DNA of 64,000 nt from Siphonodentalium dalli. Taxonomy: Eukaryota; Mollusca; Scaphopoda; Gadilida; Siphonodentaliidae. The DNA is taken from assembly GCA_032622095.1 (NCBI GenBank), contig CP136069.1, positions 104,188,278-104,252,277 of the forward strand. Direction: 5' to 3'. The position numbers were made by a program, and so were the translations under genes. Positions 32,976 to 59,504 of this stretch are shown here, one piece after another (position 1 is the first letter of the stretch; the number at the start of each line of letters is the position of its first letter). The notes beneath the pieces were generated by a model, which ran no database searches, was not told where the DNA came from, and was given only the letters and a program-made list of their open reading frames with translations.

Positions 32976-35077
32976 ATGATGATAATAATGACAAGAAGAT
33001 CAGTACGAAATAGCTGCAGTGCGCAATATAGAGCTTCCGATGCTTCTGACTGAAAAATAAAGGTTGGGGATAAGCGGAACACCGTATGCGTAACGTAACT
33101 GTCACAAGTATAACGTACTCTGATAACAACTTATCGCCAATATCATGCTTAAAGGGGCACTTTGATTATTGCGACATAACGAAGAAGCGGGCCCCGTTGG
33201 TTCAGAGTGCCCGGGTGAAAATAATTAGCGCAGTGTGTGTACTACGGTATGCGATGTCTGCAGTATCGGGGGAATTGAATGCTATCGCCTGGTGCTCTGA
33301 AGCCAAGCGCTTGTCACTCGATAGCCAACAGTGAACAGACCTGTTTGTTTCATGCATGCTCAATTTGTGTGTGTGTTTTATTTATCGTTATGATATATAT
33401 ATGCTCACATAAATCAGAATGAACTATTTATTTTATATACGGACTGTTGATTCTTGAAAGTGCAGCTAACTCGTATACTGACGTATATAGTAAAACTCTG
33501 AATGCAATATAGTTGCTGGACGCTGCATATGGCCAGTTTTATGCCGAGAACAGGGGCGTACATGTCAGGGATGTGCATTGTAACATTGGTGCCACCCACC
33601 CCCCCCCCCCCAAACAAATTGGTCAAACTTTTTGGAAAACTTGTCTGAAAATAGTTGAGTTTGATTGTTGATGTTGAACATTCCAATGATCGGTGTAAAC
33701 ATATATATATTTTTAAATTATGTAGTTTGAGACATAAATTCAATCAAAACAATATTCCACCAATGTCAAATACCACACAGTTGGATTCTTTGGTTTTTTA
33801 GGATTGCATAAAGTCACCTAATCCGGGCCATATATAGTCGTACGGGTGCATGAATTCTTAGGGGGGCTGAGACTTTGTGCCCGATCTTTTGTTACAAGAT
33901 ATATACTATCATGGTTGCATCTAGCACAGTTTTTTTAATATACCTTCTATGTACACATATATGTACACATAAATATAACAACATAGTTCAAATTAGCCGT
34001 TTAAAGTATGTATAATTCGGACAGGAATGTGTACTATACTGTAATTTACATCAATTTCCAACTGAACTACCATTCAAATTGCCCGAGTTTGAGCTTTCCC
34101 TGGTGCGTACGGCTATGATTTGCAGTTGTTTCGGTTGACCATGTGCACCAACCCCCATCAACAAAAAAAACATCTATGGACGTCTCTCGTCATGCACTTG
34201 TCGCATATATATACAGAAGAGGGTGTGTGCATGCCGAATATACGGCAATATATTCGATAATATATAATATAATAGATAATAAGATATATACAATGTTATT
34301 TCATCAAGTGACGTAGTCATAATTTCAAAATACGGGGCTATTATATACATTACACTTTAGGAACGCATTTTATATATATTAGATGTATAGCCATGTCGGG
34401 GGTATATATATGGAGTTAGTGGGTTAGGTGGTATAGGGAGTTGATGAGTTAGTGGGATGCAGTAATAACACTTACTCACAACAATTAATATGGGGCGTGC
34501 TTATTGGGACCACACGTGCTCATGCTGTCGGTATTTATTTGTTGCATGTCATCGGGTCTGCAGGTAATTTATCTTTATCTGAATTTTGTTTTGACACCAC
34601 AGATCGGGAGGCGTAGCATATGGTTCTGTACATTGGTATACAGCCAAATGGATCATACAATATTGCTCATATATTCCGGTGGCCCATTAATCACTCGTGG
34701 TCGGGCAGTGTTGTTATTTTTATCTTGACAGTTCCATGGACTTGAAATAGAAGACGGATAAAATATAATCTATCTATGGTGTTTCTTATCGGCAAATTAA
34801 TGAATTGATGAGAATGGCAACTTCAAGTTACACATTCCCTGTTTTATGACTCCCACTAATCTCACCATTCACATACATATGTGTAACAAAATATTGTTTT
34901 ACCATCCGGCCATATCCGCTCCGAAAACATCAGTGCCACCAATATAACTAACGGGAATTGTTTGTTTTATATGCACGGACTTGGATACTTTTCTCTAAAT
35001 TCTTCAAACAGATAACATAAAATATATAACGTCGGGATATTATTGTTACTTGATCTGAGATATTCACAATATCTAAA
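32976..35077. other. Intergenic upstream of the ballast gene
   Basis: No coding sequence is recognised in 32976-35077. A C-run (33598-33611), several 'tatatata' runs and a TTAA followed by AGGGGCACT at about 33151 are the only features; the last resembles one end of the TTAA-type elements, but no partner end is found. The promoter of the + strand gene must lie near 35.0 kb; I see no clear TATA or initiator. Confidence 0.4.
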
Positions 35078-35335
35078 ATGTCCACACGGAAAGGAAAAGG
35101 TCGCGCAAAAAAGCAAAAGATTTCGTATTCACCATGTGATTGTTCCAATGTTTGTAACAGGACGACGAAACGTGGTGCGTGTCCTTGTCTGTCAAGGCAG
35201 TCTTTTTGCACATCGAGTTGCACCTGTGGATCATCTAAAATGCCTTGCCAGAATAGGCCGCTCACCAAGGGCTCAGTTCTTTCGGAGGAGCTCGGTTTGG
35301 GAGATCTGAGCAGCGATTCATCAGATGACGAGAGG
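35078..35335 (+). CDS. Exon 1 of ballast gene (CXC domain)
   Basis: This encodes 86 residues from the ATG at 35078: a basic leader (STRKGKGRAKKQK), the ten-cysteine CXC-like block, then a serine/aspartate-rich tail. The donor is AGG|GTAAAC at 35336. Reading past the donor stays open to 35536, but with no cysteine logic, and a good downstream exon exists, so splicing here is preferred. Confidence 0.75.
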
Positions 35336-38300
35336 GTAAACATTCTTTATCATATTTCATGCAAGTGCGAGCCAAAACGTTCGCGCATCACGTTGGCTGG
35401 GAGCGGATATGCACACCCCTGTTCTAAATTCACATGTGTGCATGAAATCAGATTCCCACTCATCTATCAACGCACAGCCAAACGTGCTGCGCGAAATATT
35501 TTCAAGACACATAACATGTATCATAATAAATTATAAGTAAAATGGAAAGGACGTTACATCTCTGATTAATTTGTATAAGGCCTGCCTCTGTAAAAAAAAA
35601 AAAACTGAAACGATAAATATTTTCCATGTCATGTGGCTGCTTCTTTCTGTCTAATTTTCATGTCATATGGCTGCTTCTTTCTGTCTTTAGTTCATCTGGA
35701 ACTCAAGGCTGCCATCATTTTATAATTTCAGGTCATTTCAGTTAGCTTCTATGAAGATGGCGATAATGTTAGGGAAGTTCTGTTACCTGAACACGGTGAC
35801 CTGGACGAAAGTCTGCAAGATGTAGCACGACGAACCCCTGCTGTATCTATACAGGTGAGTGAGCAATTATCAATGCACCTTGCTTGACATTTCTAAATAA
35901 AGGGCCAAGTGAATTTATTACTTTCTTCTGATATTGTTTCAGTCAAGTCTTTTATAAAGATAAATTCAGTGGTTTTAATTATATTTTTAATTTAGAATGT
36001 ATACACAGGTACAATAATAAACATACATAATTATGAAGAAACAATATTGAATGCTAGAATGTCCCACCCATCTATATTGGGTAGATTGGTAACAAAATTG
36101 TGCACATTATGACTAAATAATCATAAAATGTAAAATTTTGCATACCTTACTCGTATTTAAATTCGCGCAGTACTATTTTTCGCTCAGTTTTGAATTCGCG
36201 CATTTTGAATTCGCGCACCATGCTGCGCGAATTCAAAACTGATTAAATTATTTTCTTAAAATGCTCAGTTTTGATGAAAGTTTCAGATCTTAATCGTTAA
36301 TGAAGATACATGTGCATATTAAACACCATCACGGTGGCTTTACATCGTGTATAATTTAACATAACTGCATCAATGTCTTGAGAAGACGGCTGTTTATACG
36401 CTCCGAGTAATTATTCTGATATTGAAATAGTTACATAATTGAAATGAACTCGAAAGAAGTAAAACCACATGCACGTTTAAAAAAAAACTTACATCAGACA
36501 TATTGACATGACTATATCTCAGAACGTTCATTCACTGTGTAGTGCTAGTTGTGAAAAGGGGGACGTGCTTTCGTGCATCTTCAGTCAGCAATATGTGTAT
36601 TTATTATTTCAACAGCAATGATGATACGATGATGTGTGGCTGTATACTTATATCATACATATCAGTAATGGTTTTGATGTTGGTTACCCGCATGTAAATT
36701 ATAGTCCTACAAGCCTAATATTCGGACCAACCTTCCGTAGTCTATATACATGTACGTAACTCATCAACATATAGCCTTCTTGTTCCTCGGTGATTGGTAT
36801 ACACTTAGGAGTCGTACTATTTTTCGCTCAGTTTTAAATTCGCGCACCGACGGATGCGCGAAAAATAGTACTGCGAGAATTTAAATACGAGTAAGGTATA
36901 CAGTAAGTATCATTATGACACATTATTCAGAATTCTGAAGTCATCAGGCGTGTTGGGTAGTGTTGCAATCAAGATGTAATTCTGAACCAATGGGAGATTA
37001 TCACGGTTTGCTCAAAAAGTTGTGATGACATACTTATTGGAAAGCATATGCCACTTTCCTATGATTAAGGGCTCTGATGAGTAATCTGTTATATAAACAG
37101 ATATTAACTTGGTATGGTGACACACTAAACATGTGCAAAGGTTCATGCTTTAGTCAAAAATTTAACAATTACCTTGAAAAATGGTCTTAATTGACTCCAC
37201 TATTACATCGTAAATATGGAATAATAAAGTTCAATACACATTTTATCTTGACTTGCCTATCTCAAGATGCCAAAATAATATTTCAAGATCTGTACTTGCG
37301 CAAGTCGAGATCTCAAGATATTATCTTCAGTTTAGAGATATCCAGTTATCTTTCTTTATTTTATTTTGAAATCTCAAGTTGTAAGTTGAGATACTATCCC
37401 CCACAGCCAGATAGTATTGAGATACTATCCCCAGATAGTATATAAAAATAGAGGCCAATCACGATCGGCAGATGTTTAACCCATACCTTGGCAATAGTGA
37501 TTAGTTATTTTCATAAATCTGTACACCAATCTTTTCATGAGTATAAGACTTTCAACAATTCACAGTTTACTATTAATTAATAGTTCCCAAGTGGAATCAG
37601 ACTTATTGGGCAACTTGCTCACATAAACACAATATGACCATGGATATGGCATTAAATTTCAACCTATTAGGTCACATGTATGTGTTATAGAGTGATAACG
37701 CTGAATAACCCAACCAACAGACAGATGCACTATAGCTGTTAAAGATATAATAGTTACGAAATTAAGCACAAAACATCATAATAACTCTATTTATCTACTT
37801 CTTACATTGGAACCCGAGTCATAACATTATATTGTTGTGTTAGCTCATACTAAAAAGTTATGGGGTCATTGAAATTAGAGACCAATCAATACTTGAACAT
37901 CTATACACGTGAGGTGTATAGACCTGGATATTAAATATGATTGATAATTGTTGGATATAAAATATTTTAATGCAGAATTATCAGATAATGAAAGGTGAGA
38001 TATGAGAATGGTCAGATTGAAAATATTTTCATAACATTGGATTGCATACAGTATATCTATGGTTAATTTTATTCTAAGCTGATCATATGTACCAAATTTG
38101 GTGCTGATCAGATGAAAAATATTTAAGTCATCACAGCTTGTATGAATTCTATTTATAAACAAGAGTGAAAAGGGTTAACAAAACAATACCAAAATCCATA
38201 CAGAACGTGCTAAGAAAGACCTAGGTAAGAAATACTGAGGCAGATCATAAGAAAATTGTTTGACTTAGATGCATCAGATAGCATTTGTGTGCAGGGTTAA

Positions 38301-41300
38301 TTATTTTCTAAACCGATCAACCGATCGATACCAAAAACTATACAGGTGAGGGATGTGTCATCATAAACCTACATATCAAATATGAACACAATCTGACAAA
38401 AAACACTTTGGTTATAGCATTGGATAGCACATGCCCATGTATGGATGCAAAGTGTTTTGGCCGATTGATCCTAAAATGATCAGGGTTGTGGTCTGTAGGG
38501 CATGTGAAAGAATTTAATGATGCAAAGAGTAAAATGCAAGATGGCCAAATGACTCATTCCCATCTAGAGGTGACCCCGATGATCCATGTGATGTTTGATG
38601 ATGATCGGATCAGGGATGTGATCTGTAGGATGTGTCAAATGATTTAGTGATGCAAAGAGTAAAATCCAAGATGGCCACCAGCGGCCATGTTTTTTGGCCG
38701 ATTGATCCTAAAATGATCAGGGTTGTGGTCTGTAGGGTGTGTGAAAGTATTTAGTGATGCAAAGAGAAAATCCAAGATGGCTGATGGCGGCCATGTTTTT
38801 TGGCCCAATGACCCCAAAATAACTCTTGATACAATGAGTCCAAAATACATACAATTGCTCCGAAATTATATATTACGATTATATACTATGCTATGTACAA
38901 CCCAAAACAAATATTTTATTATCTGTTTGCATACATCGACATTTGGTTTCAAACATTTGTGCGGTATATATACATTTCTGTTCATGGCAATGGCACGTGT
39001 GTGCATGCAACTGCCACGGACACAACCGAGTTAAGGGTCATGATTTGATTGTCTTAAATGGACTATTTTATTATACAGAAAAGCATTTACATGCTATACC
39101 TCTCATTTATCGGAATTATTTAACTGTATAGTGTAATATATCATAAAACTGTGTCAGTTAATTAACTTGCGGCTGTACATTCAAAACATAAGGTCGCAAG
39201 GCCTCATGTGCCCAATCATATGTGCAGAAATGAACTGCAGAAAGTTGGCATGACTATGTTATACTAAACACCCAACGTATTTAGTCATACACATAGTAAA
39301 ATCCAAAATAGCCACTGGCAGTCATTTTTTAAAACAGAATTGGGAAAAAATGGTAAGCTCCCATCTATAGGTCACTCTGAAGATCCACATGATGTTTGAT
39401 GATCGGATGAGAGTTGTGCTAAAATATTTTTTAATATACAGAGTAAAATCCAAGATGGCCACTGTCAGCCATTTTTTAAAACAGAATTTGGAAATGAAAG
39501 TGTCAATGACACTGGAGCTCAATTTGGAGAGGGGATAATTTGATGCGTTACAGACTTACAGTCAATGGAGCGATTAGGAATGCGGAATGTTTAAATGTCT
39601 AAGTATAGTACTAAATAGCAAAATGAAGAGATATATATCAAGTAAAATCGAACTACTGGGAACTACTCAAAAACAGACGAGAAAATTCCAAACTTTACTT
39701 ATTCCACAAAATTATTCATAATCTGACCCCCGTGTATCTCCAAGACCTGGTTCCTCCAATCGTATCAGACGTATCAAGAATTAACACCCGAAACGCCAAA
39801 AACTTCAGACTTCCGCAATTTCACGCAAATTCCCATGACAAATCCTTCATATTGAACACAGCAGCCCTCTGGAATTCCCCGCCGGCGCCCACACGGGACA
39901 TAGTGGATCATGACGAGTTTAGAGCGACCATAAACAAATATTATGTAAAGAAAAACCCACGTTTCAAATACTGTTACACAAGAAAAGCCCAAGTAATTCA
40001 CGCTCGCCTTCGAAACTTCTGCAGTGATTTGAACTCACATAAATTCCAAAATTATATCTCTACCACTGACCGATGTCTGTGCGGCCAAATAGAAGATAAC
40101 TATCACTTTATATTCCAATGTCAGCGTTTTTCACTCCATAGACAAAATTTCCTTGATAACCTTCCAACTACTGTTATCCCATCGGTTAGTATCTTCCTAA
40201 TGGTGACGACGCCCTAAGTGTGGACACGAATCAAACAATTTTTGAAGAATTCCAAAAATACATAATTCATACAAAGCGATTTCAATAGTGATATTGAGCT
40301 CCAAAATAAAAAAAAAAAATTATATATATATAAATAATATATAGAATCTTACATTTTTAAACAAAACAAAACAAAAACAATACAACTCTTTCTCTCTCCC
40401 CTCTCTCATCTCTCTCTCAAAAACAAAACAAAACAACTCTTTCTCTCTCTCCCTCCTCTCCCTCTCTCATATCTCTCTCCCTCTCTCTCTCTTTATCTCT
40501 CATCCTCTCTCTCTCTTTATCTCTCATCCTCTCTCTCTCTTTATCTCTCATCTCTCTCCATCTCTCTTTATCTCTCTTTATCTCTCTTTATCTCTCTCTC
40601 TCATCTCTCTCCTATCCCTCTCTCCTATCTCTCATCTCTCTCCTTTCCCTCTCTCTTCTATCTCTCTCTCTCCTATCTCTCTCCTATTTCTCTCTCACCT
40701 CTCTCTCATCTCTCTCCTATCTCTCTCTCCTATCTCTCTCATGTCTCTCTCCTATCTTTCTCTCTCATCTCTCTCCTTTCTCTCCTCTCTCATCTCTCCT
40801 ATCTCTCTCCTATCTCTCTCTCTCCTTTCTCTCTCTCCTTTCTCTCTCTCTCTCCTATCTCTCTCTCCTATCTCTCTCTCATCTCTCTCCTTTCTCTCTC
40901 TCCTCTCATCTCTCTCATTCTCTCTCTCTCCTATCTCTCTCTCCTATCTCTCTCTCCTCTCATCTCTCTCTCACTCTCTCTCTCATTCTCTCTCTCTCCT
41001 ATCTCTCTCTCTCTCCTATCTCTCTCCTATCTCTCTCCTGTCTCTCTCTCCTTTCTCTCTCCTTTCTCTATCCTTTCTCTCTCTCCTCTCATCTCTCTCC
41101 TCTCCTCTCATCTCTCTCTCTCTCTCTCTCTCTCTGCCATCAAAACCCTAAATACAGTAATGCCCTAATTAATCAACTCTTTAACCACATAATTATGGGT
41201 AACTTTTCAGGATTTAGTTGGAAATATGGCTTGTTGCCATTCATCGGAAAGCTCTAGGGGAAAGCTTTTCGATGAATATCAACAAGCCATAATTCCGACT

Positions 41301-43124
41301 AAATCCTGAAAAGTTACCTATAATTCTGCTGTGGTTAAGAAGTCGATTAATTATAGCATTACTGTACATGTATATGCTCAGATTGAAACAATTTGCAAAA
41401 CATAATTAAAGAAAATAAATCACAGTATGCATAACCCACTAGACTGACTTATATTGCCAACATTATTTGGTTCAAAGAGTTGATTTCATTTTATTTATGT
41501 CTTTGCAGAATACTGAAGAAAGCGAATCTCCAGCAGAAGGAAGCCAATCTCCAGCAGAGAGGCAACAAGATTATAGTGAGGTCATTATTGCTAGATTATT
41601 TAGACATAATGCAATGACAATTTGAATTGAAATTTTTACAAAATATTGTATGTATACTGTGAAGATTAATTACATGCAAATCCAAGATGGCTGTTCAAAT
41701 TTGATAGCTTCCAACTAGATGTGATCCTAAACATGACTAAATGTTCCAATTAATATGGGCTGCAGGGTGTGCCGACATATTCAAATTTGAAAACCAAGAT
41801 GTAAAATTTTAAATCCGAGATGGCTGCTGGCTCCCATCTATAGGTCACCCTAAACGTCCATATTAAGTATGGTGCCGATCAGATGAGGGAGGAAATTGTT
41901 AAGAGACAGAAGCCAACCCATGACAATAGCTCAAACTTTCAACTACAGGGTTCATACAGGCAAGGCCAGATAAAATTCAAGGGCAATTTAAGGCCATTTC
42001 AAGGCTGAAAAACTCTGCCGAGCATGTGGATCATCCCGCAAACCACAAACACATTGTGCATATTCTGGCCTGTTGAACCATTGATTGTTGAAAGTACATT
42101 TCCCCATTGTTGGAAGATGAAAAGAACTTGCGAAGCGAAAAATTATTTATCAGAAAAGCATGTGCTTTTACAAGCAAAACATGCGCATACGTCACGAGTT
42201 AATTGAAGGACTTTCCAATAAAAGAGCAAAATTCAAGTACTTTTCAAGGCCTGTATGAACCCTGGACCATGATCAGTTGAACTGGAGTATTCTATTACTC
42301 ATTTGGATGGAACTTCAGTCTCTTTTCAAGCAACTCCAATCGAGTAGGAATCAGAATGTTTGATCGACGGGGGCAGATATTGCGGGGATCATCAGCCGTC
42401 TTCACTACTCGATCTCTCATCTTTAGCGACGAAACTTCTCGTTTTTCCACAATTTGTAACAGTAATTCTGGAATATAATTATATTTCTTTGCTTCTCTTA
42501 TCGGAACAACACTCCACTTCTTGCTCGATTTGTTGAAGGCTTGATGGTATCTGTAATTATAATAAACATTAATTTTAGGTCTTAGAAGGGATGAACAGGG
42601 ACCAGTTGTTAAATTTTGCAAAAAGAGTTGTTGCTGCAGAGCCAGATATGCTGCAGCATCTGGAAACGACTGAGATGGACACGTCTGAACCAACAACAAT
42701 TAACTCAGCCGGCCCATCAGGAGTTCGTACAGCACCCCCACCAACACCAAGGGATGGGAGGCCGCCATGGTGCAAGTGAGGCAGGTGCAGACCTATGCCC
42801 ACAGAAGCAGAGAACCTGTGTTGCAGAACAACAGAGGGGCCCTGCTTTTGCATTACAAATGCTGAACAAATGGACCATCTGTTGAACAGAACTGTACTTG
42901 AAGTTTCGGTTCTGTTTAGAAATAACACTCTTGGTTTACAGACACCAAGAGATAACAGAAATCTGCGCTATGCAGCGTATAGAAACTATACCTTCCATCG
43001 CCACGGAACACTTGGAGAAGAGCGGAGAAGACCTGTTCCATCCTGTGTTACATGTTTGATTCGGGATACATATCCAGACCCCAATGGAGTTTATGTTGGA
43101 TATATTCCAGGTCGGCTACACTGA
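35078..43124 (+). CDS. Four-exon gene: CXC cysteine-rich domain plus P2X7-like ballast domain (in-frame TGA)
   Basis: Exons 35078-35335, 35732-35854, 41509-41580 and 42579-43124 all join in phase 0 and give 332 codons. Residues 20-60 form a tesmin/TSO1-like cysteine cluster (C20, C22, C26, C35, C37, C44, C48, C50, C57, then QNR). Residues 61-210 are acidic and low-complexity. From W215 the protein follows the zinc-binding ballast domain known from the P2X7 receptor tail and from free-standing invertebrate proteins: W-C, a second C expected at 218, then GRCRPMPTEAENLCC, EVSVLFRNN, RNLRYAAYRNYTF, HRHG, PSCV, IRDTYPDPNGVYVGY. Codon 218 is TGA (42777-42779), a nonsense change at a cysteine position, a sequencing error, or recoding. 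There are no channel or membrane segments, so this is not a P2X receptor. Ligand and cell role are unknown; zinc binding is inferred from the family. Confidence 0.75.
35732..35854 (+). CDS. Exon 2 of ballast gene
   Basis: Acceptor 'tttataatttcag' and donor CAG|GTGAGT are both strong. The 41 codons are open in the phase set by exon 1 (VISVSFYEDGDNVREVLLPE…RRTPAVSIQ). The motif resembles the short linker seen before the acidic region in related proteins, but I cannot name a domain. Confidence 0.65.
36145..36896. mobile_element. Tc1/mariner-type miniature element in intron 2
   Basis: Terminal inverted repeats of 39 bp with one mismatch start CCTTACTCGTATTTAAATTC; each end abuts TA (36143-36144, 36897-36898). 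Inner repeats of 'gaattcgcgca' sit near both ends. The 752-bp element has no transposase frame. It sits in the large second intron (35855-41508) of the ballast gene. Confidence 0.8.
38440..38840. repeat. Degenerate tandem 'ccaagatggcc' repeats
   Basis: Units of about 110-130 bp share 'ttttggccgattgatcctaaaatgatcagggttgtg', 'gtctgtagg', 'tgatgcaaagag' and 'aaatccaagatggc'. Two are nearly identical (38448-38560 and 38690-38790). Related fragments occur at 4.1, 9.7, 39.3, 41.7-41.9 and 44.5 kb, so this is an abundant non-coding family. Confidence 0.75.
39642..40217 (+). pseudogene. LINE relic, C-terminal end of reverse transcriptase ORF
   Basis: The open frame continues in sense with the 3' end of a non-LTR ORF2: NRRENSKLYLFHKIIHNLTP, VYLQDLVPP, TAALWNSPP, HARLRNFCSDL and a finger C-x-C-G-x5-N-x2-H-x4-C. 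It belongs to the same family as 31264-32485 but is a separate, shorter copy. Strand is the same as the host intron. A-rich sequence and the pyrimidine tract follow. Confidence 0.8.
40385..41138. repeat. CT-rich microsatellite, ~750 bp
   Basis: Nearly pure pyrimidine on the + strand built from CTCT with CCTAT, CATCT and CTTT variants. The 136-codon serine/leucine frame within it (40741-41151) is an artefact of the repeat. Such tracts can form triplex DNA. Lying 370 bp before an acceptor, it is unlikely to be the splice tract itself. Confidence 0.95.
41155..41363. mobile_element. Fold-back TA-flanked miniature element
   Basis: Arms of about 95 bp pair almost end to end: CAGTAATGC…TTAATCAA…GGTAACTTTTCAGGATTTAG at the left matches the complement at the right, with a short loop near 41250. 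TA lies outside each end (41153-41154, 41364-41365). This is the usual shape of palindromic mariner-type MITEs. It lies 145 bp upstream of exon 3. Confidence 0.85.
41509..41580 (+). CDS. Exon 3 of ballast gene
   Basis: Acceptor 'ttatgtctttgcag' opens 24 codons in the expected phase, with the doubled phrase ESPAEGSQSPAE. The phase-0 donor reads GAG|GTCATT, which is weak; a stronger-looking GTGAGG seven bases earlier would break the frame of exon 4, so the weak site is chosen. Confidence 0.55.
41946..42264. mobile_element. hAT-like miniature element, 319 bp
   Basis: Inverted ends CAGGGTTCATACAGGC (41946-41961) and its complement (42249-42264) match the CAGGGTT start seen in many hAT elements. 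The 8-base flanks (TTCAACTA and GACCATGA) do not match, so the duplication is lost or was never there. It lies in intron 3 of the ballast gene and 30 bp past the stop codon of the opposite gene, where it could supply the 3' end of that transcript. Confidence 0.7.
42295..42550 (-). CDS. Transposase-like gene, last exon
   Basis: Acceptor 'tattataattacag' at 42551. It codes for YHQAFNKSSKKWSVVPI, KYNYIPELLLQIVEKRE and a tail with DDPRNICP, then TAA at 42295-42297. No AATAAA signal on this strand was found in the next 150 bases. This exon lies wholly inside intron 3 of the + strand ballast gene. Confidence 0.75.
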
Positions 43125-46100
43125 ATAATTTGTTGGACTACCCAGGGGGTGCGGGAATATTTTTCCAAGCACTTGTGATCATGTTTTACTTTTTATTATT
43201 TTTGGGACCCACCTCTTGAAAACCTTGAACCTCCCGGACACATTGTGTATATATAAATGAATTATCGTGCTTTATACAGTTTTTGTCAATCAAATCCGGG
43301 TCAAACGAAGATGAAACGTTTTATAAAGCTCCTACGAGATAACTCGTAGTCAGCACCTGGGATGAAACTCATCAGTGGTCATCGCTGGTGCCAGCTACGA
43401 GTTATCTCGTAGGTAAATACATATTATGTTTTTGATGTCTTATTCGACGTAGTCTGTACCAATTATCATATATAAATTCATTTACCATGTCTTACAATGT
43501 AACATACGATATGCTTGTACATGTATAGCACTCTTCGTCATCTAAGACACTGACAATGTAATTGTATTTACCTACGAGATAACTCGTAGCTGGCACCAGG
43601 GATGAAACACTAATAAATTCCGTCTCAGTTGCCGACTACGAGTTATCTCGTAGTAGCCATATAACATGTTTCAGCATCATATGACCCGATATTGGTCGAA
43701 CCATTACTCATACATACGTAAAATATCATCTACTATCGACAAAACATCAAATCCCATGTTGGCCTACGGGATGTAATTACCCATTGGTTTTCGGCAGTGA
43801 ACGTGTTAATTACCTCACAACTCCTTCTTTTGTCTTGGCTATTTCTCGCCCAATATGTTTGTTGTTATCTATTGCTGCCAGCTGATTCCGCATCTTGTAT
43901 GCAGTGTATCTGTTCAAATTATACAAATATCACGATAAAACTGTCTGCATGAAAGATAGTTTATCTCTTTCTGAACTTGTTGGAATGACTTAGAGGCACA
44001 AAGAAATTTTGCGAAAACCATGTGCCAATGCATAATATTATATATGTGAGTCTCCCAAAGATATGTAATATAATATATTGGCCTAAACAATATTTACCTT
44101 GACCTTGTAAGCCAGTGAATTCTCATATATATGCAAGGTTCCCCAGTATATGTGATGCTGCATCAGCGCAGCTCCCATCATGAAAGGGTTTAATTAAGAT
44201 CTCAATTCTGCAGTGAATTACAACAAATGCACCACACAGAATATCCTCTGCAAAGGTGGCTTTCCGTTTATTAAAATTCTAATTTGAAAATTGTCTTATG
44301 ACAGACACAGGATGGGCATATTTTACACTCTGAGGACCATTACTTCATAAAATAAAAGTATCAGTGACACTGTACCTCAACTTGAGGAGGGTCCAGAAAC
44401 AAGCTTTGAAATAGAGTGTCTGTCATTTGTAGAATGAGGTCCCTAGAGGGTGAATTTAGTGATGCTAGCCCGCAAATGACAGACACCCTATTTCAAGGCT
44501 TGTCCAGAAAAGACCAAAATGCAAGACGGCCAATGTTTTTCATTGAAAATCGTTAAATTAAATAGTTCTCCTCTATAGGTGATCCCATTTTCAAAAGTTT
44601 AAAGATACTTACTGATAAGGAATTCTCTTTGGACAGTACATACTTATTAGTGAATGGAATAACTCCAGGAAACTTGTTTGTCTGAAAGAGAGAAAGGACA
44701 TTTGTTTACAGAAAGAACAAATTTGATTTGATTCTTTTCATGCCATTATAAATCCGCTTCAAAATCGTTTTTACACAACACAATAAGGTGATAAAAAGTT
44801 ATCTCTAATGACAATGAATGTGGATTCTTTCTGTGGTTAGTCTATTTTAACCTGGCTTTGTTTGATTGATAAGTATTTAACATATTTTAGTGCCTAAGCC
44901 ATATCCGAACTCATAGAGTGAAATTATTAAATTTCAATAGTAGTAATGTGGTCATATGTCTAATAAGAGTTGGCTTGGTTTTTTCCAATTTACTTGCAAG
45001 TTAATCTGTACTCAGTACATGGTCTCTGTGGTTGCGGGAAAACATATCCATTTATATAAGATAAACTAATGTTCTTAGTAGGTACACATGTATTTTGCTA
45101 TCTCTCTCTCATATATATGTGACATACATCACAATAAACCCCAATTTCAAGCACAATATGAAATGCTTCAGTGTGATTGAACTCATACAAACCTGGCGTT
45201 CTTTATATATTCCAGGTTCTTTGTAAACCTCTTGCTGAAAATTATATCCCTAAGGGCCCATGCAGCACTTGATTCACATTCAAGCCAAGGCTTATCTCTA
45301 TCAGTTTCGACGATGGGGATCTCGTGGTCACAGGTAGTCCAAGTCCCATCTTTCAGATACCAACCATGGATGTTGCATGCATGATGAACACATTTGTTGA
45401 AGTTATCCTACAATAATTTGAAAAAGTTCTAAATGGTTCTTCACATAATGCTTCAAGAACAACATTACATGTCATCCGAGGAAAGGTGCAGTTATTTCCA
45501 AAATTTACTTCTTCCAAGAAATGGCTAAAAACTGTCTATAAACATTCCATTTTGGGTTCATTAGTTCGCCTAAAATACTATGGAAAATATATACTTATGC
45601 GTTAAGGATTCTCATTTGTTGTCAAACATTTGAAAGTTGCAACCGGGAGGGGGGGGGGGGTGGTTGGGGGGGGGGGGTGCAAATGATTTTTGTGATACCT
45701 TGAATTTAGATCTGGTTTAAATCCCCAAATCAAGACCCTCTAGCCATGTCCCTAACAGGAGCAGCCATAATAAACACACCGCACAAAAGTACTTATTTCA
45801 CAAAACATATGAGACTGGGATTTGTTTATCTAGATTAAGTTGTTGTTGTTATATTTGAATTTGAAATAATATATCATCGGTAAGTTGGTTTAATGTACAA
45901 TTTTACTATCAATAGTTATCAACCTAGACATGAAATGGAGTATTCACCGATAATTGGATCACAAAACATGCTTTTGCGGTATATGCAACAATAATAATGA
46001 ACAAAGTTATTTAGATGAAATTACCGCAAGTGTTTCTGCATCTTGTCCACAATTTTGAGCAGAATGCCAAAGATGGCGATTAACAAAAGGAATCCATGCC

Positions 46101-47811
46101 AACAAGTCTCTATTTGCTGCCTTCTTTCCTGCCTTTAAAATGAAATGAAGATAATGAAAAGTATGGTAATCCAACATGTAATACAATCTTCTAACAGTTA
46201 AATTCAATACATGTATAATCATACATAAATTCACTCTTGATAATTATGTATCTACCATGTAAAACCAATAGAATTCATAAGACAGCATGTTCCATCTTGT
46301 TTTAAATCGTATGAATGTTATTTTTCCACCAGCTGATTATATCTGAACAAATTTGGTTGTTTATTTGCAAATCCAACATTTAAGTTGGAACATAGCCGAA
46401 CATACATATATACAAAGTTACAAACAATTTATACGTTAACAATTATCATATCATATTTCCATAACAAGTTCACCATAATATAATAACTATACACCGAGAG
46501 TTAGGCAAGTTAGCATAGCTGCAGAAACAATTACCTTTGCAATCTTTTTGTTCAGATTCTTTCCTATATGCCATGTGTCGAGTTGATGAATTATCCCTGA
46601 ATATGTCTTATCCACCCCTGTTAGAAGAAATTATATAAATTATTGAATACATTTAGAAATGTCTATGGTTATAAAAAGGTATGACCTGAGAATAATACCT
46701 CTCTATCATCTAGTAAGCATATATACAAACCAGGGGTAATTTTTTCAGAAATGTATTACCTATATATGCACATTATTTCGTAACTATACACTGAACTATA
46801 TAAATATAAATGTATGGAGATGATCCCAAATAAAAATAATTTATGAAACCTTAACCCAGTTCACCCATGCATTTTCGGACTAGAGTTAATAGGAAATAAG
46901 TATTTGAGTTGTATACTCTTGAGTGCCCAATAGTCATACATGTATATATATTTTTTTCCTGATGAAATTACCATCTGTACAATCCTTATTTGGCCCTGTA
47001 CATTTATTAATTTTCACAATGTCTTATGTGTGAACCTGCCTAATTATTTGTTTATTCAATTTTCAACACTCACTGCTCAAAATGGAAGTACATGTATATA
47101 CTGCAGTTAATGGATAAATATTTATCCTTATATTCACCAGGGTCTATCTAGCATTTATAATAAATTATATACTAGCATAGCAGATATAAGGTACCGGTAC
47201 TTTCAAAAGGATGCATCGGCGCACCCTGCACTATTATTCCAACCCTGTATTGTCATCAAAATTTTGGCAATTTTCCACCCTCTAGTATTATTCGGCAATG
47301 TACTACTATTATGCGCTCAAGAGTAAAGGGTTTCGGTAATTAGCATTACTCTTGAGAATAATGCTCTCATCACAAAAAATATTACTCCTGGGTGCGAGAC
47401 ATGCCAAATTTGAATCACTTTTGCAAAAGGATTTAGGTGTGTACACATATCAATTACAATGACAGGGTTTAACTTACTCATTAATTTAAGAATTTGAGTG
47501 TTACTGTCTGTAACCACCTCTGAAATTGTCCTCTTCTCCATAACCACTTTCATCGCTTTCTCAAATCCAGATTTTTCCATTACCACACTGTTGAAGTTTG
47601 TCTCCCGCACATCAACACATTGAAGGGCGACAACCTCATGGGAATGACAGTCCATCAAACTATAGGTACAGAACTGTGCCGAATGCCCAGGACTGTCATT
47701 CCTTCCACCCCCCGCCAACAGCATTGGATCATTTGATGACTCCAGAATATTTTGTTGCATCTGTTTCCAGTATGCATCAACTGTTGGTGCCATACATTTT
47801 AAACATGTCAT
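42295..47811 (-). CDS. Seven-exon DDE-type transposase-like gene
   Basis: Exons 47811-47478, 46617-46535, 46132-46025, 45407-45193, 44681-44613, 43909-43814 and 42550-42295 join with matching phases (1,0,0,2,2,2) to 386 residues and a stop. The protein follows a transposase-like family found in fish and marine invertebrates: GGGRNDSPGHSAQFCTY (34-50), SEVVTDSNTQI (98-107), QLDTWHIGKNLNKKI (123-137), a C/H cluster in exon 4, RDKPWL, FLELFHSLI (251-259), PKRIPYQY, and an SVVPIREAKKYNYIPELL tail. Likely acidic residues are D39, D102 or D125, and E253. Family members have D at position 35, where this copy has G, so activity is doubtful. The Met chosen starts inside the conserved core; an N-terminal DNA-binding exon is expected upstream but not seen. 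I lean to Kolobok-like because of nearby TTAA elements, but cannot prove the superfamily. It could also be a domesticated gene. Confidence 0.75.
42579..43124 (+). CDS. Exon 4 of ballast gene (ballast domain, in-frame TGA)
   Basis: Acceptor 'aacattaattttag'. After a helical lead (DQLLNFAKRVVAAEPDMLQHL) and a Pro/Thr linker comes PPWCK, TGA at 42777-42779, and the same frame goes on with GRCRPMPTEAENLCC and stays open to the natural-looking stop at 43122-43124. Conservation on both sides of the TGA shows that the frame was used as one piece. An AATAAA at 43612-43617 could serve as poly(A) signal. Confidence 0.8.
43332..43653. repeat. Nested palindromes with CTACGAGATAACTCGTAG
   Basis: The 18-mer CTACGAGATAACTCGTAG (7-bp stem, 4-base loop) or its complement occurs at 43332, 43395, 43572 and 43636. 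In addition 43385-43420 and 43564-43599 form a perfect 36-bp inverted repeat around 143 bp, and 'gggatgaaac' follows two of the 18-mers. It starts 208 bp past the ballast stop codon, within the minus gene's last intron. Element class unknown; it may be the 3' UTR of the + gene. Confidence 0.8.
43814..43909 (-). CDS. Transposase-like gene, exon 6
   Basis: Acceptor 'ataatttgaacag', donor TGAG|GTAATT. It encodes YTAYKMRNQLAAIDNNKHIG and an EIAKTKEGVV stretch, matching the family's helical segment after the catalytic E. It is the last exon before the intron that holds the opposite gene's final exon. Confidence 0.7.
44400..44501. mobile_element. Fold-back MULE-like MITE with 9-bp target-site duplication
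   Basis: Thirty-base arms (CAAGCTTTGAAATAGAGTGT… and its near complement) flank a 43-base centre; a 9-bp direct repeat, GTCCAGAAA, lies at 44391-44399 and 44502-44510. A 9-bp duplication is typical of Mutator-like elements. A larger relative borders the satellite at 16719-17147. It sits in intron 5 of the transposase-like gene. Confidence 0.75.
44613..44681 (-). CDS. Transposase-like gene, exon 5 (candidate catalytic E)
   Basis: Acceptor 'ctttctctctttcag' and donor TCA|GTAAGT are strong. It encodes FLELFHSLISMYCPKRIPY; the E in L-E-x-F-H is the likely third acidic residue of the DDE triad. Confidence 0.75.
45193..45407 (-). CDS. Transposase-like gene, exon 4
   Basis: Acceptor 'caaattattgtag', donor CCAG|GTTTGT. 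It has CVHHACNIHGWY and RDKPWLECESSAAWALRDII, a C/H-rich part followed by the W-L region that precedes the catalytic glutamate in this family. Confidence 0.7.
45645..45677. repeat. G-runs with quadruplex potential
   Basis: Runs of about 13 and 12 G separated by TGGTT on the + strand (C on the transcribed strand of the minus gene, intron 3). Length is likely to vary and assembly here may be unreliable. Confidence 0.8.
46025..46132 (-). CDS. Transposase-like gene, exon 3
   Basis: 36 codons between acceptor 'cattttaaag' and donor GCG|GTAATT. Reads AGKKAANRDLLAWIPF and HLWHSAQNCGQ; the W-H-x-A-x-x-C spacing fits the family's H/C cluster, probably a zinc site. Confidence 0.65.
46535..46617 (-). 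CDS. Transposase-like gene, exon 2
   Basis: Acceptor 'cttctaacag', donor AAG|GTAATT. It encodes the QLDTWHIGKNLNKKIAK block, matching the D-x-W-H-x2-K-x-L-x-K-K segment that is the best conserved part of the family. Confidence 0.75.
47478..47811 (-). CDS. Transposase-like gene, first recognisable exon
   Basis: This carries the GGGRNDSPGHSA block and the VTD motif; donor ATGA|GTAAGT at 47477. Reading upstream of the Met stays open for some codons and an acceptor-like AG lies at 47821-47820, so this may be an internal exon whose upstream partner is missing or diverged. Confidence 0.7.
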
Positions 47812-47978
47812 CTTCGACTTGTTTTATTTTAATTTTATGAAAATGAATAATAAATGGGGGTGATAAATATATATATAACGACAAATAGAATAAAATTAGC
47901 CATTTTCCCGTGGTTGTATCGGCCGAATCTTCCTAGGTATAGGCCTATTTTGGGGAGGAATTTTAATAGTTTTATTAA

Positions 47979-48554
47979 AGGGGTACTGTACGCCATTTTC
48001 ATAACATTTTCGGTGACAACAACGATCTAATATCGATAATATATAGAAACATAAGTAATTTGAGTCGAAGATGTATTCTGTATACGCTCAGGCTATCTTA
48101 AAATTTAATAATTTAAAAGTTAATAATTTGATATAAATTGAATTTATGACTGGAGCCATAAAATGGCGTCAATTAAATTACGAATTTCCGTAATCAAATA
48201 AAGTAATTGAGGGATACTGGATTGTTAAACCGATCGCACAAACGATCGCTTAAAATATTATGATGATACGGGGAGAACACCCAAGCCACTCACTGACTAG
48301 CGACGATACAATAACTTAAATGATTATATGGGACTAGTATGCATATAATATAACTTTTATTTGATTCATTTGGTTGAAAACTGTACAAAAATTACTCGAC
48401 AACGACAATTTGTATTTTTGCATTCCGGTAAATTTGTCATCCGTAACACTACTTTGTACTCAACAGACTTTCAAATAATGAAAAAAATTGTTACCTTATT
48501 CTCCGACTCTGAGACTATAAAACCCAACAACAACATTTGGCGTACAGTACCCCT
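47979..48554. mobile_element. TTAA-flanked miniature element (T2/Kolobok- or piggyBac-like), 576 bp
   Basis: Perfect 17-bp inverted ends, AGGGGTACTGTACGCCA, lie between TTAA at 47975-47978 and 48555-48558. The AT-rich interior has no transposase. It lies 170 bp upstream of the first recognised exon of the transposase-like gene, so it either disrupts or supplies that gene's 5' region. Confidence 0.85.
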
Positions 48555-48754
48555 TTAAGATGTTTTGTCGTTTTTTTTTTATATATTTTATTTTATGAGT
48601 ATGAGATTATTTTATGTTTATAATAAGGAAATTTTAATTGTGTCTTACATGAGTTATGTGGACATGTGTTTTTAATGGTTTTTACATGGATAAATCGTAA
48701 TTACTTACACATTTTGTGGTTAATCCAAATATCACGTTCGAGCACAATATAAAC

Positions 48755-49720
48755 AAGAGCTACGCTGGGCGTGCAATATACGCCCTCTCTTGGGTCGGCG
48801 GAAACTGGTAAAAAAGGGACATAACTCTGGTAAAAATTGGCGGACGGAACTCAAATTTGAACTTGACCTGTGTTTTGGTGGGAGAAAGTAATATACCAAA
48901 TTATCATTGAATCCGATAAGCTCTAGTAAAGTTATCATGCGGACAACAAATTTCAGGGATTTTCTAAGTCAAATTACGTCAAATAAGGGGCATAACTCCG
49001 GTGAAAATTGGCGGACGGAACCCAAATTCGAACTTGAGCTGTCTTTTCTCCTAATAAACCCACATACCAAATTTGATTGAAATCGGTTCACTCTAACTAA
49101 AGTTATCATCCGGACAACAAATTTCATGGATTTTCTAAGTCAAATTACGTCAAAAAAGGGGCCATAACTCTCGCAAAAATTATCGGATTAAAACGAAATT
49201 CGGACTTGAGCTGTATTTCGATATATGTAATCCACAAAAATACGGGTTTTGCGTATAAACATTCCAAAATCGAGTTATCATCCGGAAACCAAAAAACATA
49301 AGAAAAACTGAATTTTCTGAGTCGAAAAAGGGGCATAACTCTGCCAAAAATGGTCGGACAGAACCCAAGTTCGAACTTGACCTGTGTTTTGGTGGGAGAA
49401 AGTAATATACCAAATTTGGATTCATTCCGATAAACTATACTAAAGTTATCATCCGGACAACAAATTTCAAGGATTTTCTAAGTAAAAAAACGTTAAATAA
49501 GGGGCATAACTCCGGTGAAAATTGGCGGGCGGAACCCAAATTCGAACTTGAACTTACTTTTCGGCTAATAAACCCACATACCAAATTTTATTAATTTTGG
49601 TTCACTCTAACTAAAGTTATCATCCGGACAACAGGTTAACGGACGCCCGGACGCCCGGACGCCCGGACGGACAGACCAATACTATAATACGGCCTTTTTT
49701 TCAAAAGGGCGTATAAAAAT
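48755..49720. repeat. Dispersed repeat with ~5 tandem 'ggcataactc' units
   Basis: Starts with 'gggcgtgcaatatacgcc' and ends with three GGACGCCC units, GGACGGACAGACC and 'ggcctttttttcaaaagggcgtata', so the two ends carry short inverted motifs (GGGCGT/ACGCCC). Inside are about five units of 170-180 bp sharing 'aaaaggggcataactc', 'attggcggacggaac', 'gaacttga' and 'aaagttatcatccggacaacaa'. Non-coding; of a type I associate with bivalve genomes. Confidence 0.75.
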
Positions 49721-50587
49721 TACTATTAATAAGCATGCGAGGCGAACAATTATAATTATAGAAGAATGTTTGGTCGGTCGTTCAGTTTTTCACACTCAGT
49801 TCACGTTGGCACTAACTGGCGACGGAGTAGGCCTATATATACAGAATCGACCTTCCGATGCTGATATTATATCAGTGAGAAATACTCGCTGTTTGTTTTT
49901 ATGTGTCTCCGAGTGGTGCATATTTGAACAAAAATGTTCGAACGAACAACCACATATATAGAAGGTAAATACATTTTAAATCGATCACAAAAACTATATT
50001 AAGAAACGCTCTTCATTCATGTCTTATCACATAAATAAAAATAAGATGATAAGAAACGCTCTTTATACATCGTCAATATTTCATTTGAAAAAAAATGGAA
50101 CTTCACATAAGTTCACAATGACAACTTCGTCGGAATTCCTCCAATAACCAAGATATACAGAATCGACAAGCATAGAGATATAAACGCTGTGCAATAATAG
50201 CAGGACAGCAATAAGAAACTGCTATTTTGTTAATAATAAAGTAAAAAAAAAATCTTTTAATGTTATCATTTTTAATGTTTCATAATAAAGTAAATGTTTA
50301 TGATCGTTTCTAAAGATGTAATTCATGACTGATGTTTAGATATGTGTTTTCAAAGAAAGAATAAATGTCAATTTCGTTCAGTTAAAAAATTCAATATTGA
50401 TATGTTTGTATTGTCAGTTACACCTTCTATCGATCAGCTTGTGTAAATATGTTTCATAAATTTTATTATATTTATTCGTCTAATAAAGTGTGTTATTGCT
50501 ACAAATGAGTTAAAGTGATGTGAAATACTCCGGTAGGGTGATCAAATAGAAATGGAGAACAATCTTGCTCAAAGTAGTTATTTTTTA
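49721..50587. other. Intergenic, no gene seen
   Basis: AT-rich; contains two 'aagaaacgctctt(c/t)at' repeats near 50003 and 50050 and another 'aataagaaactg' at 50209. No supported coding sequence. Confidence 0.45.
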
Positions 50588-50861
50588 CGAATATTAATCC
50601 AAATTGACAACAAACATCGTCATTCATATCTATTAATTCAATGCAATGACTCTCGATGGCGAAATCATTTACGTTTATAGTTTATCGCCGATAGTTGCGT
50701 CCCGAATCTGATGTAAATATTTACAATTGAGCGTAGTTCATACGATGTTTTCTATGGTGTGGTATGGTCGATTTCTGTAAATTTTCGGCGATGTTAGTAG
50801 ACTGCTACATTTTCCAGGTTGGCATAGCACCTGAGTACTAACTTATCAATTTCACGCACCC
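50588..50861 (-). repeat. Dispersed repeat, inverted partner of 12979-13255
   Basis: Reverse complement of the 13-kb copy, ending at 'cacgcacc' next to the start of the next tandem field. The two copies are 37 kb apart and moderately diverged. Confidence 0.8.
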
Positions 50862-50899
50862 ATGGACGTAAATGAGATGGATAGGCAACTCTCGCAGAG

Positions 50900-52385
50900 T
50901 AAGTACGTTGCCGTGGTCATTTGCCACATTTTCCCAAAAAAATCGGACCGAGCACAGGTCGGACACTTTTTCGGACCACTTTTACGAACTCGACCCAAAA
51001 ACTTTTCGGCCCAAAATGTTCCGCCCAGCTGGCCACTTGAGAATTTGGCGTCATTTGCCACATTTTCCCAAAAAAATCGGACCGAGCACAGGTCGGACAC
51101 TTTTTCGGACCACTTTTACGAACTCGACCCAAAAACTTTTCGGCCAAAAATGCTCCGCCCAGCTGGCCACTTGAGAATTTGCACCCAGTGAGGACATTTC
51201 CCCTTCATTTTTTAGACTTTGCCTAATTTCTAGGCATTTCAAACTTTTCAACCCAATTTTTTTGTTTTTTCGGCCCAAATTTTTGTTATTTTTCACTAAG
51301 TACGTTGCCGTGGTCATTTGCCACATTTTCCCAAAAAAATCGGACCGAGCACAGGTCGGACACTTTTTCGTACCACTTTTACCAACTCGACCCAAAACAT
51401 TTTCGACCCAAAATTTTCCGCCCAGCTGGCCACTTGAGAATTTGGCGTCATTTGCCACATTTTCCCCAAAAAATCTGACCGAGCACAGGTCGGACACTTT
51501 TTCGGACCACTTTTACGAACTCGACCCAAAAACTTTTCCGCCCAAATGTTCCGCCCAGCTGGCCACTTGAGAATTTGCACCCATTGGGGACATTTCCCCT
51601 TCATTTTTTAGACTTTGCCTAATTTCGAGGCATTTCAAACTTTTAAACCCAATTTTTTTTTTTTCGGCCCAAATTTTTGTTATTTTTCACTAAGTACGTT
51701 GCCGTGGTCATTTGCCACATTTTCCCAAAAAAATCGGACCGAGCACAGGTCGGACACTTTTTCGTACCACTTTTACCAACTCGACCCAAAACATTTTCGA
51801 CCCAAAATTTTCCGCCCAGCTGGCCACTTGAGAATTTGGCGTCATTTGCCACATTTTCCCCAAAAAAATCTGACCGAGCACAGGTCGGACACTTTTTCGG
51901 ACCACTTTTACGAACTCGACCCAAAAACTTTTCCGCCCAAAATGTTCCGCCCAGCTGGCCACTTGAGAATTTGCACCCATTGGGGACATTTCCCCTTCAT
52001 TTTTTAGACTTTGCCTAATTTCGAGGCATTTCGAACTTTTCAACCCAAATTTTTTCGGCCCAAATTTTTGTTATTTTTCACTAAGTACGTTGCCGTGGTC
52101 ATTTGCCACATTTTCCCAAAACAATCGGACCGAGCACAGGTCGGACACTTTTTCGGACCACTTTTACCAACTCGACCCAAAACATTTTCGACCCAACATT
52201 TTCCGCCCAGCTGTCCACTTGATAATTTGGCGTCATTTGCCACATTTTCCCAAAAAAATCGGACCGAGCACAGGTCGGACACTTTTTCGGACCACTTTTA
52301 CGAACTCGACCCAAAAACTTTTCGGCCAAAAATGCTCCGCCCACCTGGCCACTTACGAATTTAGGGCCATTTGCCACACTTTCCG
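50900..52385. repeat. Tandem repeat, ~136-bp monomers in ~395-bp higher-order units
   Basis: Monomers contain 'tttgccacattttccc', 'atcggaccgagcacaggtcg', 'gacactttttcgg', 'actcgacccaaaa' and 'cccagctggccacttgag'. They occur as pairs starting about 50930/51060, 51320/51455, 51717/51850 and 52110/52245; a spacer of about 120-130 bp ('ttgcacccattggggacatttccccttc…aagtacgttgccgtggtc') joins the first, second and third pairs. The 80-150-codon frames on both strands are products of the periodicity and low stop density, not genes. Confidence 0.9.
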
Positions 52386-52389
52386 ACAT

Positions 52390-53439
52390 TTTGCGAATAA
52401 GGAATAAGTAACAAAATTTACGTTGCTTTTTGAGGCGTGATATATTTTGTTCTGCATATCTACATTTGTGATGTCATAAAATTTCCACTTATATTGCCCG
52501 TTTATATAGCGAAAAATGATTTGAAACCAATACACATACGGTATGTTTCCGATTTTAGGCACGCCACTTTTCTCATGTTCCGATAATTGATACGCTACAC
52601 TTCTCTTCTCCAAACATCGCCTTGATCAATACGGCAAAAATCGACCATATTCGGAGTATATGCCGAGATTTTTGAATGTATGTCAATGTTATTATTCAAT
52701 ATAAGCACACACGTATTTAAATTACCCTACATTATTGAGTAGAAATGACACTGTTTTGCTTTCAGTCGTTATATTTTGGTATTTACGCGATTTATTATGA
52801 TTATTTCTGGTTGGCACACACTAGTTAAGGTTATTGTTGTATGATGTCGTGTCACATTATTCTTCTGTCTTTGTGGCGTGCTTGTTGCTAACGGTATCGG
52901 TGTGTGCCCTTCACTGACTTCAACTGATGTATCAACGTCGATTTGTTGGCATGAGAGATCCAGCAAAAATGCCGACTCCTCTAATGACAGGATGGACCCC
53001 TCGGTTCCAGCTGACATATCGTCACCTCAGTTCCAATGTGTCTTATATCCATAAATAAATCACACACATCTAGGAGAAATTGGAACCGAGGTGACAATAT
53101 GTCTACTAAATATATGCTAAGACATATATAGGCCTACTAGTACTCGGATATATGTATATATATTATTGCTATTTATGTCGGGATATTTTAATATATAGAC
53201 AGTGCCCACAGCCACGTGTGACGTGAACAAATCTGAACTCTTCACTTTTGCGCACATGGTTTAAACCGGTCTCAAGTTACATTTTGTATGTTACCGTACA
53301 CTACATGAAATTGCCGCCAGGCCCTGTTCCAAAAAATCGATTTGCAGGATAAGAGAACTCTACGCGCATTACCGTAACACGAATATTATGATGTCAATTT
53401 GTTATTAGATGTACTCAAAAACCTACCCCTGCCCTATTG
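52390..53439. other. Intergenic, no gene recognised
   Basis: Open frames at 52353-52613 (-) and 52769-53017 (-) have no motif I know. An inverted pair is visible: 'gtcacctcagttccaatg' near 53021 and 'ttggaaccgaggtgac' near 53079, a 16-bp imperfect stem about 45 bp apart. Confidence 0.4.
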
Positions 53440-55872: not shown

Positions 55873-57100
55873 AAATGATAACTGTTTTAGTTAGAAATCG
55901 GAAGTACTAATTGCATAATCATGGTTCAATATAAAGAGTTACACATCTTTGACCCGTTCTGAAACAAATAAAGAACGTTTATTAGAGCCAACAATATTAT
56001 ACGACATTACGAATATAACCACGTATATAGGCCTATATGATTAAGACATCGTGTATCAGTTTCAGTTGATAGCGTGGTCACAATAGCATAACCATTGAAG
56101 ATTCTCCCATTCGTGCGGTACCAATTATGTAATAGTATGACGATTTCATTTGGAAATATTAAATAAATAAATCACTGATTATCTCTCCAGTGTCAAATAG
56201 AGCGTGATTGAAAAGTCGTAATATAATGTTGTCCCCACATATCCTTCCGTCGCCATTTGGCTATATATATAACTATGTGATATATGCATGACACCTAGCT
56301 CGTATCAGTGGAAGTAGCATAATCGTTCGGGGATTCCATCATTCACGAGTTATCAATGCTGTTATAATTATATATATGACAATTTGCAATGATGCACAAT
56401 CACTGCTTTATTCGTGCTAGAAGAAATCAGGCAGCATCAAACCCCGAAAAAAGACGAAAAAAACACAAACTAAGATCACATGAATAAGCTTATCGGTTCG
56501 GAAATGTAACATATTTTATCGGAAAGAGTCTAACTGATGTAACGTCTTATTGGAGATGAAACGTAGCGTTTTTGAGCACCTTTTAACTGCCGTTTTTTGT
56601 CAAATTATAGGTATATATCTCTAAACAATGCATATCCATGTATCAACAAGACGTATATCATGAATTCCACGAAAAAGCGGCCATGGATGCCGATAATGGG
56701 TATTTGCATCATAAGCATACATGTCATCGGGGAATGTTGTTGCTTCTTCTGTATTTCATTATTACTATCCAATGAATATATTTTGGAATGGTCATTGCCC
56801 TCACTATACAATCTCTTAAACACCAGATATTGTGTGACTGGGGATCAATGATGCGCGCATGCGCAGTCAACGCATATTTTCATATTTTGCCAAATAAGGT
56901 CAAATGAACCAAAATATCATTTTCAAGCAGCTGAAGGGCCATTCTAGGTTAATAGTGAGGCATGTGTGGAAATGTCATTTTTGTCACATTTCCCATATCA
57001 CAATCTGCCTCAATTACCATAGTATCCCCTTTTTGCACATATATTTTAGTAAAATGACGGTTTAACCCCTACCAATAACCCGTTTCTAAGGTAAAAACAG
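55873..57100. other. Intergenic upstream of GAK
   Basis: No gene recognised. The 84-codon frame at 56597 and its antisense counterpart have no known motif. Confidence 0.4.
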
Positions 57101-57400: not shown

Positions 57401-57473
57401 GCAAGTGGCCCTAATAGGATTCCATAGAACCCCCGTGATCCCTGCACTAATTAACTAGATCAATAGACTGACC

Positions 57474-59501: not shown

Positions 59502-59504
59502 CTA

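Follow-up and report, generated by a model that had tools for sequence, protein, structure and literature searches.

The two convergent genes described here, whose last exons are interlocked, very probably belong to a defective Kol0-type Kolobok DNA transposon, in which the interlock would have arisen once and then been inherited. They lie in a 64,000-nucleotide stretch of DNA from the scaphopod Siphonodentalium dalli (the window, by which we mean the whole stretch analysed), and the host assembly that was searched comprises 2.23 Gb in 9 contigs, with the window on contig C9. One gene (KolX, or the ballast gene) runs rightward from the element's left end, and the other, a transposase, leftward from its right end. 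For comparison, we refer to a copy of the same family on contig C1 (the C1 copy), to two copies with both ends from a second interlocked family (F1 and F2), and to other copies by L numbers. The features of the pair in the window are as follows.

33149..33152, no strand: TTAA target site at the left end, with the element starting AGGGGCACTTTGATTATTGCG at 33153 (alignment with the C1 copy)
35078..35335, + strand: KolX exon 1, Cys-rich N terminus (like exon in the C1 copy, F1, F2, L013, L017, L019 and L020)
35732..35854, + strand: KolX exon 2, acceptor ag, donor gtgagt (97.6% to the C1 copy)
41509..41580, + strand: KolX exon 3, an optional exon of 72 nt with a weak donor, gtcatt (translation in frame)
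42295..42550, - strand: last transposase exon (T7), nested in the final intron of KolX (11 other copies have a homologous antisense exon next to their ballast exon)
42551..42578, no strand: 28-nt AT-rich spacer with two back-to-back splice acceptors (sequence reading)
42579..43124, + strand: KolX last exon, P2X7 ballast domain, in-frame TGA at 42777-42779 (Pfam and PDB matches)
43814..43909, - strand: transposase exon T6 (phase-joined frame)
44613..44681, - strand: transposase exon T5, LELFH, candidate catalytic E (block alignment)
45193..45407, - strand: transposase exon T4, C/H-rich (block alignment)
46025..46132, - strand: transposase exon T3 (phase-joined frame)
46535..46617, - strand: transposase exon T2, DxxH motif (DTWH) (block alignment)
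47478..47794, - strand: transposase exon T1, 5' side cut at 47794, GGGR instead of GDGR (comparison with other copies)

The interlocked last exons claimed by an earlier sequence-only reading of this DNA are present where it placed them. The last KolX exon (42579-43124, +; acceptor ...attaattttag/G) sits within the last transposase intron (43813-42551, -; donor GAG/gtaatt), across which the phase is carried over from the next exon 5' of T7 (43909-43814), and T7 (42550-42295, -; acceptor ...ttattataattacag/A) sits within the last KolX intron. The 28 nt that the same reading counted between the two back-to-back acceptors match the sequence (42551-42578), as does its minimum overlap of the primary transcripts, 830 bp from 42295 to 43124; the coding exons themselves do not overlap. 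Each primary transcript would thus cross the terminal exon of the other gene and remove it as an intron, and the pre-mRNAs would be mutually antisense over at least those 830 bp. Other parts of the earlier reading needed amendment. The seven transposase exons and the ballast exons do join in frame as it said, but it had missed the in-frame TGA at 42777-42779. For the last ballast intron, which it placed at 41581-42578, the acceptor side stands, but the donor at 41580 (GAG/gtcatt) is weak as judged by eye and the 72-nt exon before it (41509-41580), although in frame, is optional; if it is skipped, the last ballast intron becomes 35855-42578, so that the interlock is unaffected either way. Its statement that the branch regions must overlap the exon of the other gene was too strong, as candidate branch sites can be read by eye inside the 28-nt spacer on both strands. 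In the window, one AATAAA was seen past the ballast stop, at +488, and no signal of the AATAAA type was found within 700 nt past the transposase stop. Splicing of the terminal exons of both genes as modelled is a prediction from frames and splice sites. Two repeats were observed in the introns of the pair: nested inverted repeats at 43286-43699 (CTACGAGATAACTCGTAG palindromes), downstream of the ballast exon in the last transposase intron, are perhaps a small nested element, and an inverted-repeat element with 67-nt arms lies at 36139-36902 in the long KolX intron, where most of 36118-38610 aligns to nothing in the C1 copy.

The + strand gene is identified by its protein matches as one that encodes the intracellular (ballast) domain of P2X7. 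The frame carries through ballast exons 1, 2 and 4, and exon 3 (from 41509) is in frame as well. With an X placed at the TGA, the KolX protein matches Pfam P2RX7_C with E=2.6e-27 and 96.4 bits, against a cut-off of 23.5. In PDB, P2X7 chains were matched, down to E=7e-10. By hand count in the KolX-PDB alignment, two of the five GDP-contacting positions of P2X7 (R546 and R578) are kept; that KolX might have a guanine-nucleotide role is a guess.

From its sequence blocks, the - strand gene encodes a DDE transposase that follows the Kolobok pattern: it has a C/DxxH motif, read as DTWH, and ahead of the last acid a stretch rich in C and H. Its seven exons are in phase, have gt/ag borders and hold 388 open codons. 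When aligned by position, the blocks GDGR, TD, DxWH and LExFH are common to the window transposase and a 632-aa single-exon relative (L037), and these blocks hold the candidate catalytic acids. The first block reads GGGR in the window versus GDGR in the C1 copy, F1, F2, L022, L023 and L037. Between DxxH and the last E, the C/H residues are CVHHAC..H and CDH in the window and HH..H and CGH in F1, a zinc-finger-like stretch in T4 that is a candidate for zinc binding. The 632-aa relative has a MULE match that is below the cut-off (E=9e-4), and the search of PDB with the transposase gave no match beyond one at chance level (E 0.87).

Evidence that the pair is mobile comes from the ends. In the window family, the left end is TTAA/AGGGGCACTTTG at 33149, common to the window and C1 copies; homology between the two starts at this TTAA and the flanks beyond it differ, and thus the element begins there. 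Its terminus fits 5'-RR (AGGGGCAC). TTAA with the left terminus (25 bases) occurs 275 times in the genome at two or fewer mismatches, against none for the reversed control, which fits non-autonomous relatives. On the right side, homology to the C1 copy stops at 47794, inside exon T1, while past the cut point an N-terminal transposase exon is still present in the C1 copy and in F1. This exon has no match within window positions 46001-60000, for which reason a reading of 53026-52769 as the N-terminal exon was dropped. Neither a right inverted repeat nor a right TTAA was found at the window locus, where opposite-strand matches to the first 18 left-end bases all have five or more mismatches, and the search for ends did not reveal the right end of the window family. 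A search for pairs of terminal inverted repeats inside the window gave at best 3 mismatches in 14 (best controls, 4), and neither member of that pair is the end found later. Taken together, the TGA at 42777-42779, the cut in T1 at 47794 and GGGR in the first block show that the window copy is broken. With gaps uncounted, it differs from the C1 copy by 1.2-2.1% in introns and flanking non-coding sequence, by 0-1.9% in exons, and at one of the 28 spacer positions, so that the window family was mobile fairly recently. In a search for close relatives in viral_contigs, none was confirmed by tblastn.

Both ends are present in F1 (C1:86444925-86465869, 20,945 bp) and F2 (C7:154652183-154672278, 20,096 bp), each with TTAA on both sides and a perfect 16-bp inverted repeat, AGTAACTGGTCCAGAT. 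The termini at both ends, AGTAACTGG..., follow the 5'-RR ... YY-3' pattern, and the sequence just inside the 16-bp repeats differs between the ends. In F1, the KolX ATG, as read by eye, is ~150 bp in from the left end, and an N-terminal transposase exon lies at 17902-17549; F2 has a stop in that exon. Because the TTAA sites and terminal repeats of F1 and F2 enclose both genes, the two genes are one mobile unit. The proposal that the layout marks a single two-gene transposon is therefore borne out by the TTAA duplications and 16-bp repeats around both genes in F1 and F2 and, for the window family, by a TTAA-bounded left end common to a copy at another site. TTAA and 5'-AG at the ends are found in two families.

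Several further features of the window were recorded. From 17314, a long tandem array with a unit of ~202 bp extends to ~24.8 kb; it was reported as 37 overlapping copies, of which many match the reference at 95-99%. At 47975-48558 is a MITE with TTAA and the terminal repeat AGGGGTACTGTACGCCA, a 94% copy of which is found in the T4-T5 intron of F1 (L015 7718-8309) but not in F2. Past the point where the transposase is cut lies a direct-repeat array (50868-52465, spacings ~134 and 260), and a long inverted repeat at 58321-59501 has 226-nt arms that are 93% complementary and 668 nt apart. A FLYWCH zinc-finger reading frame is found at 1080-1430 on the - strand (Pfam E=6.5e-8). Judged by eye, 31225-32485 and 53825-54562 are reverse-transcriptase-like fragments of non-LTR retrotransposons, and 61550-62355 is a retrotransposon protease-like reading frame with an ILDSGADIS motif.

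Whether the interlocked pair recurs, a check that the earlier reading had proposed for other genomes, was addressed in this genome alone, and the pair was found again. At least 67 places in the host genome encode the ballast domain, a lower bound, and these were compared with 107 transposase places at a distance of 20 kb; only the best candidates were scored (106 of 224 for the transposase), so that absences of the transposase are weak evidence. An opposite-strand transposase match lies within 20 kb of 35 of the 67 ballast places and a same-strand match of none. By the nearest last exon, 12 of the 67 places are interlocked, on six contigs and in four families, a recurrence that makes the interlock more than chance. 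Plain tail-to-tail pairs number 17 (14 by the nearest last exon, and L024, L026 and L028 by separate comparison), among them L037, in which a 632-aa single-exon transposase frame (140-2038, +) converges with a single-frame ballast gene (8939-9508, -). Six more places have transposase pieces downstream only, with the last exon not found, and among best candidates 32 have no transposase match inside 20 kb, leaving 38 of the 67 unassigned.

Interlocked copies of the window family are on C9 (the window), C3, C1 and C5, the last three being the closest other copies to the window; the C5 copy is rearranged, with exon T6 between two pieces of the ballast exon (L011 4878-6136). The remaining interlocked copies comprise one at C1:78.5M, a family of four divided evenly between C5 and C9, and a family with members on C8, C1 and C7. 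Spacers in the 12 copies measure 28, 28, 28, 29, 411, 33, 33, 33, 46, 46, 46 and 9 nt, and are thus 28-46 nt in 10 of the 12 and in three of the four families; those of 411 and 9 nt belong to L012 and L020, respectively, and the former indicates that closely packed acceptors are dispensable. Ten of the 12 copies have an acceptor AG on each strand; in L013 and L020, the + acceptor is lost. Where exons were matched in one piece, the copies are as little as 34-43% identical to the window in the ballast exon and 33-57% in T7; in L017, L019 and L020, the ballast exon was matched in two pieces (31-47%). Most of the interlocked copies seen carry damage, for example broken ballast frames in L017 and L019 and a broken T7 in L019.

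Trees of both proteins support a single origin of the interlock, probably from the plain tail-to-tail layout of the sister families, followed by inheritance. The ballast tree holds 40 of 41 extracted rows (L054, of 55 aa, was dropped), 35 of them different, drawn from the 67 places with 26 unfetched; L040 and L043 were labelled plain though their last exon was not found. A strongly supported branch (ultrafast bootstrap 96, SH-aLRT 91) has all 12 interlocked rows of the tree on one side, and one layout change is required in 96% of 200 bootstrap trees. L027, where T7 was not found, falls inside the interlocked branch, and the tree carries a long-branch warning that includes L012 and L027. The transposase tree (19 rows, built from blocks mapped to the window protein, with the plain L037 chosen as root) has the same split between interlocked and plain copies (SH-aLRT 94; ultrafast bootstrap 87, moderate), and under this root the plain families are sister and outgroup. 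Because a branch sets the interlocked copies apart in both trees, a single origin with inheritance is the simplest reading. Between families, dN is 0.40-0.76 and dS is at least 1.9 or saturated (four pairs per terminal exon), and this difference suggests that both terminal exons were kept as protein-coding; within families, there are 0 to 3.5 synonymous differences per pair and dN/dS is uninformative. As to how the interlock could have formed, a tandem duplication of a block with both terminal exons, followed by loss of both outer copies, would give exactly the observed exon order and strands. This route is only an idea; a search for duplication relics in the introns found none (best E 0.62).

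Other explanations of the pair can be weighed against this evidence. The long introns and a transposase open for 388 codons would suit a chance overlap of two host genes, either unrelated or a domesticated pair, yet copies of the pair lie on many contigs and, in a related family, inside units bounded by TTAA and terminal inverted repeats. Moreover, a TGA and a truncated transposase mark the window copy, and its divergence from the C1 copy (1.2-2.1% in introns, 0-1.9% in exons) is as in recent transposon copies, all of which makes a host origin highly improbable. Equally improbable is an artefact of assembly or gene modelling in which one terminal exon is not real. The weak + donor at 41580 and splice models drawn from sequence alone would be in its favor, but copies on six contigs have homologues of both exons in similar positions, 10 of the 12 interlocked copies show acceptor AGs on the two strands, and the protein ends are conserved between families.

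On the other hand, the interlock could be a working regulatory device, in which convergent polymerases and antisense pre-mRNAs would keep the outputs of both genes low or mutually exclusive and so limit transposition. Its retention across four families whose identity to the window is 33-57% in T7 and 34-43% in the ballast exon (one-piece matches), and spacers of 28-46 nt in three of the four, are consistent with such a role. The sister families, however, lack the interlock, from which it follows that this type of element can do without it, and descent alone explains retention because undoing the arrangement needs a rare rearrangement; we consider the regulatory explanation unlikely. A still more doubtful extension would have the interlock selected clade-wide, through a two-way splice-acceptor segment common to both genes, for self-limiting antisense expression and for inseparability of the genes, with KolX as an obligate guanine-nucleotide- and zinc-binding partner of the transposase. 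If true, this would be a counterpart to GTP use by the P-element transposase and would account for the source of the GDP-binding ballast of P2X7. We favor inheritance of a rare, hard-to-undo rearrangement over a regulatory role; no single break would part the two genes without harming at least one. Plain and interlocked families in one genome offer a natural comparison for how a two-gene transposon entangled its genes, one that bears on whether expression is limited by that entanglement and on whether KolX and the transposase have to move as a pair.

Elements of this kind are already known, and the interlocked clade is a variant that we did not find in print. In the passages of Kojima and Bao (2022, PMC9587614) that concern them, Kol0 Kolobok elements encode a transposase and KolX, which has the P2X7 ballast fold, and P2X7 is described as having arisen through fusion with KolX; KolX of Kolobok is thus the published candidate source of the P2X7 ballast. 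The same paper gives the C/DxxH motif as common to P and Kolobok and traces the first description of Kolobok to Repbase Reports. Kol0 elements (Kolobok-1_XT type) share with the elements here the DDE transposase, the KolX ballast, TTAA duplications, 5'-RR ends and C/DxxH. The passages of PMC9587614 on Kol0 and KolX do not give gene orientation or interlocked exons, and F1 and F2 measure 20-21 kb. In the literature searched, as far as its text was available to us and with Repbase Reports outside it, we found no description of interlocked terminal exons in Kolobok and no account of the role of KolX in transposition. KolobokP, as presented in parts of PMC9587614, likewise has two genes, with the accessory gene on the complementary strand downstream of the transposase. 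In KolobokP, however, the accessory gene encodes a His-Me finger nuclease, and long direct repeats of ~450 or 660 bp are found at the termini. The ends of F1 and F2 carry 16-bp inverted repeats. Ballast genes occur across Metazoa near two recurrent markers, according to the portions of Rump et al. (2020, PMC7016195) available to us. The P2X7 ballast and the nanor/ZCD proteins treated there have the same domain as KolX, in which, by our count, the R546 and R578 positions are kept. In P2X7, the ballast belongs to a channel, whereas here it follows a Cys-rich N terminus in a transposon. Finally, the convergent and nested antiparallel overlapping genes of metazoans (PMC2330155) share with this pair the antiparallel overlap of 3' ends. 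The classes found in the available text of that paper (partial convergent, nested, embedded) do not name an arrangement in which each terminal exon lies in the last intron of the other gene, and the pair here is mobile and multicopy.
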